Below are positions 2,035-38,441 of a stretch of 38,674 bases of DNA, piece by piece. Position 1 is the first letter of the stretch, and the number at the start of each line of letters is the position of its first letter. Under the pieces are notes generated by a model. That model did not search any database and had not been told where the DNA came from. It saw only the letters and a list, made by a program, of their open reading frames with translations. Source of the DNA: Propionispora vibrioides (GTDB lineage: Bacteria; Bacillota; Negativicutes; Propionisporales; Propionisporaceae); contig NZ_FODY01000033.1 in NCBI RefSeq assembly GCF_900110485.1, positions 1-38,674 on the forward strand, written 5' to 3'. Made by a program: the position numbers and the translations under genes.

Positions 2035-2487
2035 TTATTTAGGCCGCGACAGCAACCGCAATACTTTAGCTCCTGTATCACGTACGCGGCGCAACGGGGT
2101 AATACTGACTTTTACTTTGGGTTTCATATCGCGTTCTGAACCAAAATCTCCCCGCTTTATATGGGTAGTTCTCGTTTTTTCCGGTTTAAGCCGTTCTCTC
2201 AACACGGCAATTGCGTTATTGGGGCTGCTCTGCTCTTCGCAGGTCATAATATCAATCGCGGCATAGCCCAGATCAGGATAGCTATGAACACTCATATGGC
2301 CTCTGGCGAGCAGGGCCATCATCGACAGACCCTGCGGCTCGAATCTATGGGAAGTAAAACCGATCACGGTCATATTGGCCTCGGTAACGGCACTATATAT
2401 GGTGTCTCTAATGAAATCCATGTTGTTTAGCTTATCAAAATTGCAACCATACATATCAATGGTTACGTGCTTGCCAATTAATTTCAC
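2035..2487 (-). CDS. SpeD/SpeH-family protein lacking the pyruvoyl-forming serine
   Basis: The 150-residue protein aligns over residues 1-125 with class 1B S-adenosylmethionine decarboxylase. That enzyme makes decarboxylated AdoMet for spermidine synthesis. Family residues seen: Ser55 (QGLS), His68 (SVHSYP), and Cys83 (IDIMTC) at the same numbers as in the Thermotoga enzyme. The self-cleavage site, normally Glu62-Ser63, reads Arg62-Gly63 (LLARGHMS). Without Ser63 the chain cannot form a pyruvoyl group by the known mechanism. A basic tail of about 25 residues (KPKVKVS... to RLLSRPK) exceeds the usual length. Start is GTG at 2487, with AAAGGAG upstream. Monocistronic. Could be a pseudoenzyme or regulator, like the trypanosome prozyme, rather than a decarboxylase. 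Confidence 0.85.
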   Translation of the reverse strand: MKLIGKHVTIDMYGCNFDKLNNMDFIRDTIYSAVTEANMTVIGFTSHRFEPQGLSMMALLARGHMSVHSYPDLGYAAIDIMTCEEQSSPNNAIAVLRERLKPEKTRTTHIKRGDFGSERDMKPKVKVSITPLRRVRDTGAKVLRLLSRPK

Positions 2488-2934
2488 GATGAATATCGCT
2501 CCTTTGGATGTATTCGATATGACTATAGAAACTCAAAATGGGTAAAATATAGGAAGGATTTGGCGAAAAGTGGGTATTTCTCGCGGTATAATTACGATTA
2601 CGCTGTTTTATATCTTTATTCTACAACTTTTGATTATAAGTGTCCTGCCGGGGATTGTAAAGGGGGTATTTTAGAAAGGCGAGGCGGCAGCAGATAGTGC
2701 TCTATTTGCACTTACAAAATAAACAGAGTTAGGGTGTGTCTTGCAACAGGATGATCCATGGCGAATGATTTTTGTGCCAGATGAATTATACCTCAAATGG
2801 TACGCGAAATTTGGCAGGAATAGCGGACTATTTCAAAAAAATAATGAGGTAGGGCACGGATAGTTTAAAGACACGCTCCAGAGTTTGAGCGAATTGAGAA
2901 TTGAGGTTTGATTGCGGAGGCTTTTGCACTGCAA

Positions 2935-6419: not shown

Positions 6420-6863
6420 TTGAGCAATTTGGCTGATATCATTGAGCAATTTATTTTGCGCCGCTTATCGGCAGAAAACAGTGATATTGTGATTTTGAAA
6501 CGTAACGAACTTGCTGATGAAATAGAATGTGCCCCCTCGCAGATCAGTTATGTACTGAGTACGCGTTTCACCACGGAAAAGGGGTTTATCGTCGAATCGC
6601 GGCGGGGTCTGGGTGGCTTTATCCGTATTGCCCGGCTTGTCGCTCCGGCCACGCTTTATGAAAAGGTAGCTGCTGAAATTGATGAGGATACGCCGCTGGA
6701 CGATATTCTGGCGATTGTGGAATATTGGCAGTCCCACAATCTGTTAAGCGCTAGGGAGGCGGCCCTGATTACACAGTACTGTGCTATGCTGTACGATTTT
6801 GTCGTGCCGGATCGGCGGGTTCCGTTATTACGGATGATCTTTATAACACTAGGGAACCACTGA
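6420..6863 (+). CDS. ctsR: CtsR, repressor of class III heat-shock genes
   Basis: A 147-residue winged-helix repressor. It binds GTCAAA heptads upstream of clp genes and is released on heat or by loss of McsB/ClpC control. The N-terminal half has the helix-turn-helix part (KRNELADEIECAPSQISYVLSTRF, here split at residue ~37) and the wing glycine segment VESRRGLGGFIRI that contacts DNA. The C-terminal half is the dimerisation/McsB-interaction domain. Start is TTG at 6420, with AAGGAGG eight bases upstream. It is first in an operon with mcsA, mcsB and clpC. Its last five codons and TGA stop lie inside the left end of a palindromic repeat (6852-7012), so the C-terminus is probably slightly altered. 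Confidence 0.93.
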   Translation: MSNLADIIEQFILRRLSAENSDIVILKRNELADEIECAPSQISYVLSTRFTTEKGFIVESRRGLGGFIRIARLVAPATLYEKVAAEIDEDTPLDDILAIVEYWQSHNLLSAREAALITQYCAMLYDFVVPDRRVPLLRMIFITLGNH

Positions 6864-7012
6864 TTTATCTGCAGTGCGCGTCCTGAAGGAGTTTTTTCCG
6901 CTTGGCTGCGTCAGTAAAACCTTGAAATAGCTGGGCTAGTCTCTGGGCTTTACTTTCTTGCCAGACGCCAAAATTTCACACCAGGCCGACAGACTTATTA
7001 AATCAGCGGTTC
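6852..7012. repeat. palindromic repeat between ctsR and mcsA
   Basis: Inverted ends (6854-6867 with 6999-7012, one mismatch). A shorter relative lies at 35085-35164 with the same outer ends and a shared GCCGACAGA segment. Size 161 bases here against 80 there. No coding capacity. It sits inside the clp transcript and provides the ctsR stop codon. Confidence 0.7.
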
Positions 7013-7044
7013 TTTAGGTAAGTATTCATAGGGGGGAACGGTTC

Positions 7045-7578
7045 ATGTTATGTGATAACTGCAAAAAGCGCTCGGCAACGGTACACATTACTAAAATCAT
7101 TAATAACAGCAAGGTAGAAAGCCACTTATGCAATGAATGTGCCCAGGAATCGGGCGAAATGAGCCTGGCTGGCTTTTCGGTAGATAATAAGTTTTCGGTT
7201 CAGGATTTTCTGAAGGGAATGTTTAATTATGGCTTTGTCGAGGCGCCACAGGCTAAGAGCGAGATAGCCTGCAGCAATTGCGGCATGACCTACAGTGAAT
7301 TCAGCCGTAGCGGGAAAATCGGCTGCAGTGTTTGCTATTCGATCTTTGGCGAAAGACTGGAACCCCTACTCAGGCGCATTCATGGGTCCAGTGCTCACAC
7401 CGGAAAGGTGCCGCGACGGACGGGCGGCCTCTTGGAAACCAAACAGCGGCTAAAACGCCTGAAGCAGGAACTGGAACGGCACATCAGCCGTGAGGAATAT
7501 GAACTGGCGGCCAAAGTGCGCGATGAAGTGAGAAGCATTGAAAAGATCATTAGTGATCAGAGCAAAGAGCAGGAATAG
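7045..7578 (+). CDS. mcsA: McsA, activator of the McsB arginine kinase
   Basis: A 177-residue zinc-binding adaptor that activates McsB and takes part in CtsR control. Zinc motifs: CDNC at residues 3-6 with CNEC about 29 residues later, and CSNC near 78 with CSVC near 94. The C-terminal third is a UVR motif (LKRLKQELERHISREEYELAAKVRDEVR), as in ClpC and UvrB. A strong GGGGGG site precedes the ATG at 7045. It follows ctsR after the repeat and is 15 bases before mcsB. Length is normal for the family. Confidence 0.93.
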   Translation: MLCDNCKKRSATVHITKIINNSKVESHLCNECAQESGEMSLAGFSVDNKFSVQDFLKGMFNYGFVEAPQAKSEIACSNCGMTYSEFSRSGKIGCSVCYSIFGERLEPLLRRIHGSSAHTGKVPRRTGGLLETKQRLKRLKQELERHISREEYELAAKVRDEVRSIEKIISDQSKEQE

Positions 7579-7593
7579 GGGAGGGAAAAGAAT

Positions 7594-8670
7594 ATGTCAA
7601 TAGAAAGCTTGCTGAACGAATCGATGAATTCATGGATGTTGGGCGGCGGCAAGGAAGCGGATATTGTTCTTTCCAGCCGGGTACGCCTGGCCCGTAATCT
7701 GGAGGGAATCCCCTTTCCAAACCGGGCCAGCGATGAGGATTTGGCTGTTGTGGCCAAGGAAATTGCCGGGTCGATGGAGGATTTAAAGAAAGCAACCCAA
7801 CATGAGTATATTTTTGCCGACATGGAAGAGCTTTCGCCGCTCGACCGGTATGTGCTGGTGGAAAAACATATCATCAGTCCCCAGCATGTACAGGAGGTAC
7901 AGCACAGAGCCTTACTGGCAGCGGAAGACGCTTCCGTAAGTATTATGATCAATGAGGAAGATCACCTGCGTATTCAGTGCATGACGGCAGGCCTGGAATT
8001 GGGGGAAGCCCTGGACCTGGCCAACCGGGTGGATGACAGTCTGGAGGCAAAGCACAGCTTCGGGTTTAATGAGCAAATGGGCTACCTGACAGCTTGTCCG
8101 ACTAACCTGGGAACAGGGCTCAGGGCTTCGGTGATGCTTCATCTTCCGGTCCTGGTGCTTACGCGGCAAATCAACCGGGTTATTGGAGCTGCCACCCAGA
8201 TTGGACTGGCGGTGCGCGGCTTTTACGGTGAAGGGACGGAGGCCGTTGGCAATGTGTTTCAGATCTCCAATCAGCTGACCTTAGGGTATACGGAGAATGA
8301 GATTATTGACAATCTAAATAGCGTGGTGCGTCAAATTGTTGAACAGGAGCGAAAAGCCCGCCGGCTGCTGCTGGCGGAATCCAAGGACACTTTGTCCGAC
8401 CGGATCTGGCGGTCCTTCGGAATTTTGCGTTATGCCCGCAGTATAACCGGACAGGAAGCGCTGACCATGCTGAGCGAGGTGCGGCTGGGGATTGATATGG
8501 GCATTGTAACCGATGTCCCGGAAAATATTTTTAATGAACTATTGGTAACTACGCGGCCTAACTTTTTGCAGAAGCTGGCCATGAACAGAGGTCTTCACAG
8601 TGAGCATCGCGATCAACTGCGGGCCAAAATCATTAGAAAACGTTTGAGAGAGGTGGATAAATATGTTTGA
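7594..8670 (+). CDS. mcsB: McsB, protein arginine kinase
   Basis: A 358-residue phosphagen-kinase-like enzyme. It phosphorylates arginines on CtsR and misfolded proteins; phospho-arginine marks them for ClpCP. Family features seen: the ATP-site arginines in [20 protein letters not shown] (residues 27-46, given here in full at the 20-residue limit), [11 protein letters not shown] with the acidic/His pair near residue 125, the [16 protein letters not shown]-type loop near residue 170, and the C-terminal phospho-arginine-binding domain with the conserved RPNFLQ segment. RBS GGAGGG lies upstream. The stop overlaps the clpC start by eight bases, so translation of the two is probably coupled. Confidence 0.93.
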
Positions 8671-11110
8671 TAGATTTACGGAACGGGCCCAACGGGTATT
8701 GAATCTGGCGCAGCAGGAAGCCATCCGGCTGGGTCATAACTATATTGGCACCGAGCACTTGCTGCTGGGGCTCATTCATGAAGGAGAAGGCGTGGCGGCA
8801 AAAGCGTTGTCTTCGCTCAATATAAACCTGGATACAGTGAGAAAACAGGTAGAGGCGATCATTGGCCGCGGTGAAGGGGCTACGGAGATCGCCTACACAC
8901 CGCGGATTAAAAAAGCGCTGGAACTGGCGGTGGATGAAGCCGTTCAGTTAGGACACAACTATGTCGGGACCGAACATATTCTGCTGGGCTTGATCCGGGA
9001 AGGCGAAGGTGTGGCCGCGCAGGTGCTGGCCAGTCTGCATGTCAATCTCAATCTGGTAAGGCAGCGTACGATGGAGTTATTAGGCGGCAATGCCGCTGCC
9101 GGTCAGGCTGCGCAGCCAGGACAGGGCTATACTGCCGGTCCGACCGCCAATCAGACTCCCACTCCTTCGTTGAATGAATTTGGCCGTGATTTGAATAAAC
9201 TGGCTCAGGAGGGAAAAATCGATCCGGTCATCGGACGGGAGCAGGAAATCGAACGGGTTATCCAGATCTTAAGCCGGCGTACCAAAAATAATCCGGTGCT
9301 TATCGGTGAACCAGGCGTTGGCAAGACGGCCATTGCCGAAGGGCTGGCCCAACGTATTGTTGAGGGGCGGGTGCCGGAAATACTCCGGGATAAACGGGTC
9401 GTATCCCTCAGCATTGCTTCTATGGTGGCCGGTTCGAAATACCGGGGTGAATTTGAAGAGCGTCTGAAAAAGGTCATGGAGGAAATTCGTGCCCACGGCG
9501 ACATTATCTTGTTTATTGATGAACTGCATACCCTGATTGGCGCCGGAGCGGCCGAAGGGGCTATTGACGCCGCCAATATTTTAAAGCCGGCTTTGGCCAG
9601 AGGGGAACTGCAGGCCATCGGTGCCACTACACTGGATGAATATAAGAAGCATATTGAAAAGGATGCGGCTTTGGAGCGTCGTTTTCAGCCTATCATGGTT
9701 GGAGAACCTAACGTGGAGGATGCCATTAAAATCCTCACAGGCATCCGGGATAAGTATGAGGCCTTTCACCGGGCCCAGATTACCGATGAAGCCATTGCGG
9801 CGGCGGTCAATCTGTCTCATCGCTATATTGCCGACCGTTTTCTGCCGGATAAGGCTATTGACTTAATGGATGAGGCTGCATCAAGGGTAAGGCTGCAGGC
9901 GGCTTCGTTGCCACCTGATGTAAAGGGAATTGAAAAGTCCCTGGAAAAGCTGCAGGCTGAGAAAGAGGCGGCTATTGCGGCCCAGGAATTTGAACAGGCC
10001 GCCAAATTGCGCGATGAGGAGCAGCGTCTAAGGGCATCTCTGGAGGAAAAACAAAAGGCCTGGAAACAGCGGGGCAGTGAGCGGATCGTTGTGACGGCCG
10101 ACGACATTGCCCACGTGGTGGCCACCTGGACAGGCGTGCCTGTTAAAAAACTGGCTCAAGAGGAATCGGAGCGGTTGCTGCAACTTGAGTCGGTGCTGCA
10201 TGGCCGGGTAATTGGTCAGCAGGTGGCTGTTCAGGCAGTGGCCCGGGCCATTCGCCGGGCTCGTGCCGGCTTAAAGGATCCTAAACGGCCGATCGGTTCC
10301 TTTATCTTCCTGGGACCTACCGGTGTTGGTAAAACCGAACTGGCCCGGGCTTTAGCGGAAGCGATTTTCGGCGATGAAAATGCCATGATCCGGTTGGATA
10401 TGTCGGAGTATATGGAAAAACACACCGTGTCCCGTCTGGTGGGCGCACCTCCCGGCTATGTCGGCTATGAAGAAGGTGGCCAACTGACCGATGCTGTTCG
10501 CCGTAAACCCTATAGTGTGGTGCTGCTGGATGAAATCGAAAAGGCCCATTATGATGTATTCAATATGCTGCTGCAGGTGCTGGAGGATGGGCACCTCACC
10601 GATAGCCAGGGACGAAAGGTAGATTTTAAAAATACCGTAATCATTATGACCTCCAACCTGGGCGCGAAGCATTTGAAGAAGGAATCTGCCCCGCTGGGCT
10701 TTGTCACCACCGGTAAGAATGACGATGCCGAGGAAAAGGCTAAGGCCAGAGTTCTGGAAGAAGCTAAACGGGTTTTCCGTCCGGAGTTTATTAACCGGAT
10801 TGATGAAATTCTGGTGTTCAGCAGCTTAACCGATCAGGAATTAATCCAGATTGTCGATATTATGTTGCACGATATGGCAAAACGCCTGAAAGACAACGAG
10901 CTTAAGCTGGACGTGACCGAAAAGGCTAAGAAGGAGCTGCTCAGAGCGGGCAGTGATCATGATTATGGTGCCCGTCCCTTACGCCGGGCCATTCAGAAAA
11001 TGGTGGAAGATGAAATTGCCGAACGGATGCTCCGCCAGGAAGTGAAAGCTGGGGATACCATCCTGGTGGATGCCGACGACAATCATCGACTTGCTTTCAG
11101 CAAAAAGTAA
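8663..11110 (+). CDS. clpC: ClpC, AAA+ unfoldase of the ClpCP protease
   Basis: An 815-residue Hsp100 ATPase that unfolds phospho-arginine-tagged or adaptor-bound proteins for ClpP. Order of parts: two Clp_N repeats (about 1-70 and 76-145), a Gln/Pro/Thr-rich linker, AAA domain 1 with Walker A GEPGVGKT near 215 and Walker B LFIDELHT, the middle coiled coil with a UVR motif near 430-466, AAA domain 2 with Walker A GPTGVGKT near 551, and the ClpP-contact and C-terminal domain. The middle insertion is short, as in ClpC rather than ClpB. It is the last gene of the CtsR-controlled operon, followed by a hairpin. Full length. Confidence 0.96.
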
Positions 11111-24784: not shown

Positions 24785-25050
24785 GGAAAATGTAGCGATT
24801 GGGAAAAGTAAGCGTGTTTCGGACCTGCAGAGAGGCACTGTCACCGGCTGCGAACAGTGCCAGGAAAGATCCGCTGAAGTGCCCCCATGAACAGGATGGC
24901 TGAAAAAAGCGGCCCGGTTTACTGCCCGGCTCTTTTAGTAGGTGGTCCCGGCGGCAGCCGTTATCATGTTTGAGTGGGATATGGTTTGTTTACATATCTA
25001 AACAGAGTGGAACCACGGCCACCGTCTCTGTCAAGAGACGGTGGCTTTTT
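24785..25050 (+). promoter_or_regulatory. T-box leader of cysE-cysS (probably Cys-specific)
   Basis: The T-box sequence AGAGTGGAACCACGG (25004-25018) is followed by a perfect 12-bp terminator (25018-25029 with 25034-25045, loop 25030-25033, T run to 25050). Stem I features lie upstream: AGTA at 24807-24810, a distal hairpin ~24836-24862 and a candidate specifier TGC (Cys) at 24880-24882. Uncharged tRNA-Cys would bind the specifier and T-box, forming the antiterminator. The cysteine genes downstream agree. Specifier register is inferred. Confidence 0.85.
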
Positions 25051-37014: not shown

Positions 37015-37099
37015 GGAGGGATTCCCGAGTGGCTAAAGGGAGCAGACTGTAAATCTGCCGGCTCTGCCTTCGCTGGTTCGAATCCAGCTCCCTCCACCA
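37015..37099 (+). tRNA. tRNA-Tyr (GTA), copy 1
   Basis: 85 bases with a long variable arm and encoded CCA. Anticodon GTA in the stem CAGACTGTAAATCTG. Acceptor GGAGGGA pairs with TCCCTCC. Confidence 0.97.
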
Positions 37100-37157
37100 A
37101 TTTATCCATAGTAGGAATGAAAGAACGAAGATGGTGGGAAACTACTGTCAAACACAT

Positions 37158-37234
<77 letters not shown>

Positions 37235-37265
37235 ATAAACAAACGCCAATAGGCGTTTTATCTAT

Positions 37266-37341
37266 GCTGGTGTAGCTCAGTTGGTAGAGCGTATCCTTGG
37301 TAAGGATAAGGTCACCGGTTCAATCCCGGTCACTAGCTCCA
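37266..37341 (+). tRNA. tRNA-Thr (GGT), copy 1
   Basis: 76 bases. Anticodon GGT in CCTTGGTAAGG. Acceptor GCTGGTG pairs with CACTAGC with one wobble. CCA encoded. Confidence 0.96.
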
Positions 37342-37605
37342 TTTTTTTGTAATGTTTTGTAATGAAGGTATTCTAACAGAATACCGATAACACAACCGGA
37401 CTTGTGAGACAAGACCGGAGGGTGCCGATGCAAGACCAACTTACCTGTTGGTTGATATCAGGCTTAATGGCTTAGGGCATTGATAAATGGACAGCTGCAA
37501 GGCGCGACGAGGACGCGAGCGAGGGCGTACTGATGAGGTACGTTGAGCGAGCGACCGCAGGAGCAACGCAGCAGATGGCCGTTTAGCGATGGCCGTGCCG
37601 AACAG
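37342..37605 (+). other. tRNA spacer, first copy, with hairpins
   Basis: 264 bases with no gene. It contains a perfect 8-bp hairpin (37367-37374 with 37378-37385), a conserved hairpin (37396-37418: CCGG and CTTGT with their complements), and a repeat unit running from CAGCTGCAAGGCG (37483-37495) to GCAGATGGCC (37571-37580). The conserved hairpin recurs in the second spacer. Confidence 0.6.
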
Positions 37606-37682
37606 GGCGGCGTAGCTCAGTTGGCTAGAGCATGCGGTTCATACCCGCAGTGTCCGGGGTTCAAATCCCTGCGCCGCCACCA
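37606..37682 (+). tRNA. elongator tRNA-Met (CAT), copy 1
   Basis: 77 bases. Acceptor GGCGGCG pairs with CGCCGCC; anticodon CAT; CCA encoded. The acceptor is fully paired, so it is not the initiator. A lysidine-modified Ile tRNA is possible from anticodon alone, but the body resembles elongator Met. Confidence 0.9.
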
Positions 37683-37750
37683 AAAAAACATTGACAGACT
37701 GATCTTTGAATTGTATAATTAACTTTGTCGTAAGGCAAGTAATACAAAAT

Positions 37751-37826
37751 GCTGGCGTAGCTCAATTGGTAGAGCAGCTGACTTGTAATCAGCAGGTTGG
37801 GAGTTCGATTCTTCTCGCCAGCTCCA
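37751..37826 (+). tRNA. tRNA-Thr (TGT)
   Basis: 76 bases. Anticodon TGT in GCTGACTTGTAATCAGC. Acceptor GCTGGCG pairs with CGCCAGC. The only tRNA of the cluster present once, between the two duplicated blocks. Confidence 0.96.
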
Positions 37827-37834
37827 GACATCAT

Positions 37835-37919
37835 GGAGGGATTCCCGAGTGGCTAAAGGGAGCAGACTGTAAATCTGCCGGCTCTGCCTTCGCTGGTTCG
37901 AATCCAGCTCCCTCCACCA
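37835..37919 (+). tRNA. tRNA-Tyr (GTA), copy 2
   Basis: Base-for-base the same as 37015-37099 by eye, including CCA. Confidence 0.97.
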
Positions 37920-37972
37920 TTTATCCACAGTAAGAAAGAACGAAGATGGTGGGAAACTACCGTCAAGCACAT

Positions 37973-38049
<77 letters not shown>

Positions 38050-38091
38050 ATAAATAAACGCCGTTAGGCGTTTTATCTAATAAAGTTAGCT

Positions 38092-38167
38092 GCTGGTGTA
38101 GCTCAGTTGGTAGAGCGTATCCTTGGTAAGGATAAGGTCACCGGTTCAATCCCGGTCACTAGCTCCA
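38092..38167 (+). tRNA. tRNA-Thr (GGT), copy 2
   Basis: Same sequence as copy 1 at 37266-37341. Confidence 0.96.
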
Positions 38168-38364
38168 TTTTTTTGTAATTACGTTCCTTTACCGGGTATT
38201 CTAGTTTGACGTATCCGGACTTGTGAGACAAGACCGGAGGGTGTCGATAAAGGCACAGCTGCTAGGAACGATGAGTACCGCAGCGGAGGCGCACTGGTAA
38301 GTGCATTGAGCAGCGGAACGCAAGAGTGACAACGCAGATGGGCGTTTAGCGGCAGCCGACCTAA
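38168..38364 (+). other. tRNA spacer, second copy, with conserved hairpin
   Basis: 197 bases with no gene. The hairpin at 38215-38237 and the bases after it (GAGGGTG) match the first spacer; other parts have diverged in sequence and length. Confidence 0.6.
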
Positions 38365-38441
38365 GGCGGCGTAGCTCAGTTGGCTAGAGCATGCGGTTCA
38401 TACCCGCAGTGTCCGGGGTTCAAATCCCTGCGCCGCCACCA
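38365..38441 (+). tRNA. elongator tRNA-Met (CAT), copy 2
   Basis: Same sequence as copy 1 at 37606-37682. Last tRNA before the terminator and tuf. Confidence 0.9.

Follow-up and report, generated by a model that had tools for sequence, protein, structure and literature searches.

SpeD, the AdoMet decarboxylase, works through a pyruvoyl group formed at Ser63; if this serine is missing, the cofactor does not arise and the known route to decarboxylation is closed, and a glycine cannot form pyruvoyl. Pseudoenzymes of AdoMet decarboxylase (AdoMetDC) are known from trypanosomes and from domains of eukaryotic enzymes, and no stand-alone, near-universal bacterial one was found in the open literature. 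The trypanosome prozyme has been described as an AdoMetDC paralogue which binds the active enzyme (PMC5201418), and the literature on SpeD neofunctionalisation describes pyruvoyl decarboxylases and names no Negativicutes (PMC10407285). Here we report that a SpeD-derived pseudoenzyme with a C-terminal module of its own is a core gene of Negativicutes.

The window, that is the whole stretch of 38,674 nucleotides analysed (contig NZ_FODY01000033.1 of Propionispora vibrioides), carries on its reverse strand a SpeD-like coding sequence of 150 aa (2035–2487, stop included) with a GTG start, delimited by family matches and orthologues. The protein displays a SpeD (AdoMet decarboxylase class 1b) domain at residues 3–113 (2149–2481, reverse strand), recognised by TIGR03330 and by superposition of the model on 1vr7_B, followed by a class-specific module at residues 112–150 (RGDFGSERDMKPKVKVSITPLRRVRDTGAKVLRLLSRPK; 2038–2154, reverse strand). 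The signals around the gene lie on the same strand: a ribosome-binding site AAAGGAG (2499–2505) 11 nt upstream of the GTG, a promoter TTTACA-N17-TATAAT (2633–2661) with 11/12 consensus bases that is conserved before orthologues in related genera, and an intrinsic terminator hairpin of 9 pairs (1998–2020) on the 3' side. The description of the gene in an earlier note (GTG start, ribosome-binding site, terminator, SpeD match and Arg62-Gly63) holds throughout.

Convergent with this gene is one for a secreted, porin-like protein (909–1844, from a look at the sequence), and ctsR, mcsA, mcsB and clpC-like genes are found a few kb away (6420–11110). This proximity is kept in Sporomusaceae-like and Veillonella genomes, the other side being often occupied by rRNA operons or rubrerythrin. 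Across the class the neighbours vary by family (nitronate monooxygenase, ctsR-mcsA-mcsB-clpC, rubrerythrin, an rRNA operon, and RecD2 in others), and none of the neighbourhoods showed a polyamine operon; we thus rejected a function based on operon context. Elsewhere in the window we observed a T-box leader scoring above the gathering threshold (24786–25032) and nine tRNA genes (37015–38438), several of which recur with equal scores about 760–825 bases apart, which suggests that a tRNA array was duplicated at the end of the contig.

The window protein matches PF02675 (1.4e-34) and TIGR03330 (1.2e-34, 119 bits for a curated cut-off of 75.65), which places it in the class-1b SpeD family. The nearest solved structures are those of Thermotoga maritima SpeD (1tmi/1tlu, 5e-21 across residues 2–115), a class 1b enzyme (TM0655; PDB 1tlu, 1tmi, 1vr7; TIGR03330, PF02675) of the same fold (Z 20, 32% identity). 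The AlphaFold model superposes on 1vr7_B with Z 20.2 and an rmsd of 1.6 over 117 aligned residues (1.6–1.8 across T. maritima SpeD), and Foldseek ranks the non-processing S63A mutant of this enzyme first; these match lists concern the core, the tail region being barely covered by known-fold comparison. A likeness to the phage SAM lyase 6zm9 (Z 6.5) fell within the range of chance arrangements and was set aside. The window protein differs from the T. maritima enzyme by about 37 additional C-terminal residues, a module for which order is predicted, and by Ser63→Gly, Glu62→Arg, Trp70→Tyr and Glu72→Asp. Codons 62–63 (AGA GGC; 2299–2304, reverse strand) thus specify Arg-Gly where the alignment gives Glu-Ser, the self-cleavage site, in wild-type T. 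maritima SpeD. Ser55, His64, His68 and Cys83 are retained, including the His68/Cys83 pair of processing and catalysis, and so are the substrate-loop residues F49, P51 and Q52. Given the absence of Ser63, judged from the sequence, the protein is expected not to decarboxylate AdoMet.

A sequencing error that hides a serine, or a serine in all close orthologues, had been named beforehand as what would reduce this replacement to a simple lesion. Neither holds, since another Propionispora species (G002) has the identical Arg-Gly in a gene that differs from the window copy by 27 synonymous and 4 non-synonymous changes (dN/dS 0.034), and Propionispora sp. 2/2-37 (G001) has Glu-Gly at 62–63; a sequencing error or a fresh lesion is therefore ruled out. 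In the tree, a single loss of Ser63 accounts for all three Propionispora genomes.

The C-terminal module defines a clade that extends far beyond this genus. In the alignment it follows the SpeD fold as RGDFGSxxDMKP...PLRRxRxTGAKV, with the consensus RGDFGSxxDMKPK then PLRRVRxTGAKV, and the window protein carries it (RGDFG..DMKP and PLRR.R.TG.KV, with profile positions 1–147 matched). We refer to such proteins as tail-type. Of 60 relatives searched first, 56 have the protein, as do 51/52 of the good-quality genomes; tail-type copies were then read in 136/150 Negativicutes genomes. These counts, like every presence or absence reported below, rest on searches of mostly draft genomes. Two genomes about 99–100% complete (G017 and G493) are without a tail-type protein. 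When 398 genomes of the phylum were searched, copies from the same class matched the profile to position 145–147, and the matches listed from other classes stopped near 112–128, with one exception that reaches 139 by stop-codon read-through; the other-class SpeD sequences that were read have ordinary short ends. All named relatives with the tail motif are Negativicutes or Bacillota bins, among them Veillonella, Phascolarctobacterium, Mitsuokella, Propionispira, Anaerospora and Lucifera; the restriction of the tail to the class is shown by computation. No significant score for the tail was obtained on any other protein in 40 genomes, no significant Pfam match was found, and the PDB returned repeat-like chance matches only. 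A phage origin was rejected, as the matches of relatives on viral contigs are confined to the core, reaching no further than residue 120, and do not include the tail.

Loss of the serine is recurrent in this clade. Among 139 distinct tail-type proteins, residue 63 is Gly in 67, Ser in 45, Cys in 11, Phe in 9, Ala in 4, Thr in 2 and His in 1; all 15 canonical class-1b SpeD proteins used as outgroup have Ser63. Rooted on these 15, the tail-type proteins form one clade (SH-aLRT support 92), in which Ser63 is reconstructed as ancestral with nine or more changes: 9 by Fitch (the fewest) and 14 losses by Dollo (no regain allowed), both approximate counts from a quick tree with weak inner branches. 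Purifying selection is evident with or without the serine, and strong in the Ser-less pairs, the median dN/dS being 0.029 for Ser-less pairs (n=45) vs 0.044 for Ser pairs (n=25), pairs that are not independent. The proposal that a pseudoenzyme has been retained here, and that its basic tail is conserved, is supported and extends to the whole class; we hold the retained pseudoenzyme with high confidence. The Arg-Gly pair itself did not prove conserved, Arg62 being lineage-local; what is conserved is the loss of Ser63 and the tail.

The C-terminal module is the most conserved part of the tail-type protein. Mean entropy among Ser-less members falls from 2.36 bits in the core to 1.85 in the active-site strands and 1.08 in residues 112–126. 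From residue 112 onward the window protein has a net charge of +8, and the mean is +11.4 in Ser-less members vs +0.9 in canonical SpeD. Modelling with 105 homologues gave a mean pLDDT of 93, with tail blocks at 81–90, and predicted a helix (118–121), a strand (124–129) and a second helix (131–147); the predicted order depends on the alignment, since 34 homologues left the tail helix uncertain (51–63). Compared with shuffles, this helix is amphipathic (mean z 2.15).

The reading we favour, and consider rather probable as a whole, is that of a SpeD-derived protein that has given up catalysis for binding or regulation, with the basic helix of the module as its probable contact surface. An ancestral Ser-bearing SpeD would have gained the C-terminal module (short helix, strand, basic amphipathic helix) no later than the root of Negativicutes; as function shifted to the module and the conserved fold, self-cleavage and decarboxylation would have become dispensable, and Ser63 could then be lost many times. 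The exposed basic helix would contact a polyanion, most likely RNA of the ribosome or an mRNA, and an uncleaved SpeD dimer would present two such helices. RNA as the partner, taken by itself, is a tentative assignment with somewhat less than an even chance: the basic tail could equally meet an acidic protein, a lipid or a nucleotide, or merely shield the dimer.

Among the alternatives, the one that survives best is a small-molecule sensor in which the AdoMet (or polyamine) pocket is kept without the chemistry and the ligand is reported through the tail. The model can be overlaid on AdoMet-binding SpeD, F49, P51 and Q52 persist in the window copy together with H68 and C83, and His64, His68 and Asp79 are nearly invariant among Ser-less members across the class, which could mean a ligand pocket kept beyond the needs of structure alone. 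That invariance may nevertheless be structural, canonical SpeD also keeping these residues, and the substrate side has decayed: all 15 outgroup proteins have F49, P51 and Q52, whereas these residues are retained in 16/94, 15/94 and 14/94 Ser-less members, respectively. AdoMet binding is thus unlikely as a common function. The decay weakens the sensor role, least of all for the window copy, and we rate it as improbable though worth keeping in view. The suggestion in the earlier note of an AdoMet-binding regulator is accordingly doubtful for most Ser-less members, and what stands of it is the intact loop of the window copy.

A second alternative holds that the Ser-bearing members are working decarboxylases (of AdoMet, arginine or ornithine) and that the Ser-less ones are degenerating and in the course of being lost. 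Glu-Ser is kept in 34 tail-type members, 27 Ser-bearing members have all the processing residues (Ser63, His68 and Cys83, with Ser or Thr at position 55), and neofunctionalised SpeD decarboxylases are known elsewhere (PMC10407285); by these residues some Ser-bearing lineages may still be enzymes. However, purifying selection on the Ser-less copies is as strong as on the Ser copies, Ser-less copies are near universal across whole families with the tail as their most conserved part, a class-1a SpeD is also present in 43/46 genomes with a Ser copy, and Cys83 is missing in 16/45 Ser-bearing members. This explanation is quite unlikely.

The earlier note had raised an analogy with the prozyme, by which the dead paralogue would heterodimerise with the true SpeD and switch it on, and had advised looking for a second, serine-bearing speD in the genome. 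Such a gene was found: a separate class-1a SpeD (DKSHITVHTYPE) lies on contig C30, and SpeE on contig C2. The own genome thus offers an active partner to a paralogue that is dead by sequence (Ser63 lost under purifying selection), and the model resembles the trypanosome AdoMetDC/prozyme chains (Z about 10), as any AdoMetDC would. Over the class the picture is different. A class-1a SpeD was found in 108/150 genomes, and in the 136 tail-type genomes a Ser-less copy accompanies class 1a in 59, a Ser copy accompanies class 1a in 43 and class 1b in 2, and one genome has a Ser copy alone; in the remaining 31 a Ser-less copy is the sole SpeD that we could find, which excludes a prozyme-like activator as the general function. 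Three of these genomes (G047, G057 and G501, 98–99% complete) also lack a SpeE detectable by search, so that independence from other SpeD and SpeE is demonstrated at the level of gene content. Moreover, the other SpeD is of class 1a and thus distantly related, the two genes are not neighbours in the own genome (C33 vs C30), and class-1a SpeD is active without a partner in E. coli. We regard a prozyme-like role as very unlikely. As for expression, Vpar_0438, which is down 18-fold in coaggregation (PMC6529473), was considered as evidence and discarded, being more likely the class-1a gene (SKV38 561,973) than the tail-type one (1,017,172).

Slightly less probable still is a scaffold for the aminopropyltransferase SpeE, on the model of the AdoMetDC-like N-domain of human spermine synthase, which is used for dimerisation (PMC11203672). 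The window model superposes on that domain (3c6k) with Z 11.0 and an rmsd of 2.4 over 97 aligned residues, and SpeE was found in 18/19 genomes checked; yet no operon is shared, G017 and G493 have SpeE without the tail-type protein, and G047, G057 and G501 show the reverse, on which ground SpeE was rejected as an obligate partner. Concerning polyamine genes in general, a cluster with carboxynorspermidine synthase and decarboxylase is present in two genomes without other SpeD and suggests an AdoMet-independent route to spermidine. At loci L300 (3351–9091) and L302 (2912–7791), in genomes where no class-1a SpeD was found, we observed genes for a fold-I decarboxylase, speE, agmatinase or agmatine deiminase-type enzymes, carboxynorspermidine synthase and nspC; speE is retained there although no catalytic SpeD was found. 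That the Gly63 proteins are catalytic by a route needing no pyruvoyl group is scarcely credible: some Ser-less-only genomes do keep SpeE, which would need decarboxylated AdoMet, but the two whose cluster was read hold the carboxynorspermidine enzymes, Cys83 is lost as well in 41/94 Ser-less members, and we know of no SpeD chemistry without the pyruvoyl cofactor.

Returning to the reading of a polyanion-binding protein, the 5' leader of the gene is of interest. In Sporomusaceae-like genomes the tail-type genes share the promoter and a leader of about 80–160 nt, represented in the window by a candidate leader of about 145 nt (2488–2632, reverse strand). A helix between GGCGTA and TACGCC is possible in many orthologous leaders, and the window leader has no partner for it. 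Across 45 genomes, 5/6 matches to the GGCGTA...TACGCC pattern precede a tail-type gene; folding z-scores are -2.2 and -2.65, and covariation is weak. Many of the orthologous leaders, as at L006, L015 and L026, also have an unusual ribosome-binding site, GGGGCGA, which could pair with CGCCTC. The orthologous leader is, by sequence, a possible candidate for a translational switch or for autoregulation. In a more specific version, which we offer as speculation and hold to be unlikely as it stands, the class would have recruited the SpeD fold with its C-terminal strand and basic helix as a ribosome- or mRNA-associated RNA-binding protein, and the Sporomusaceae-like leader may let it control its own expression.

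In the open papers on SpeD, searched for Negativicutes, for Veillonella and for pseudoenzymes, we found no description of the tail-type clade; one may exist elsewhere. TIGR03330, an NCBIfam equivalog, matches 49/105 tail-type proteins at about cut-off strength (E up to 1e-21), the Gly63 window protein included, and by naming them adenosylmethionine decarboxylase it is a likely source of misannotation; applied to Ser-less members, this name misleads pathway predictions. The tail-type protein probably does a job other than spermidine synthesis. As a core gene that spans Veillonella, Phascolarctobacterium, Mitsuokella and relatives of Sporomusa, it points to an additional function in diderm Firmicutes, and, with a catalytic serine lost again and again and a tail that does not change, it provides a natural series for studying the passage from enzyme to non-enzyme.

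Compared with the known systems, the tail-type protein resembles the trypanosome prozyme (PMC5201418) in being an AdoMetDC-fold paralogue that is selected for without catalysis; however, the prozyme has the class 2 fold and acts by binding the active enzyme, whereas the window protein is of class 1b and many tail-type genomes have no other SpeD that was found. The arginine and ornithine decarboxylases SpeDA and SpeDC (PMC10407285) are likewise SpeD paralogues that have left AdoMet decarboxylation beside a second SpeD; they are pyruvoyl enzymes which require the serine, and in the Ser-less tail-type proteins, the window protein among them, this serine is lost and no substrate is implied. In human spermine synthase (3c6k) the N-domain, and in class 2 AdoMetDC the non-cleaving C-terminal half, also use the fold without catalysis, for dimerisation or structure. 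Both are parts of larger enzymes, whereas the tail-type protein is a stand-alone bacterial protein with a tail of its own.
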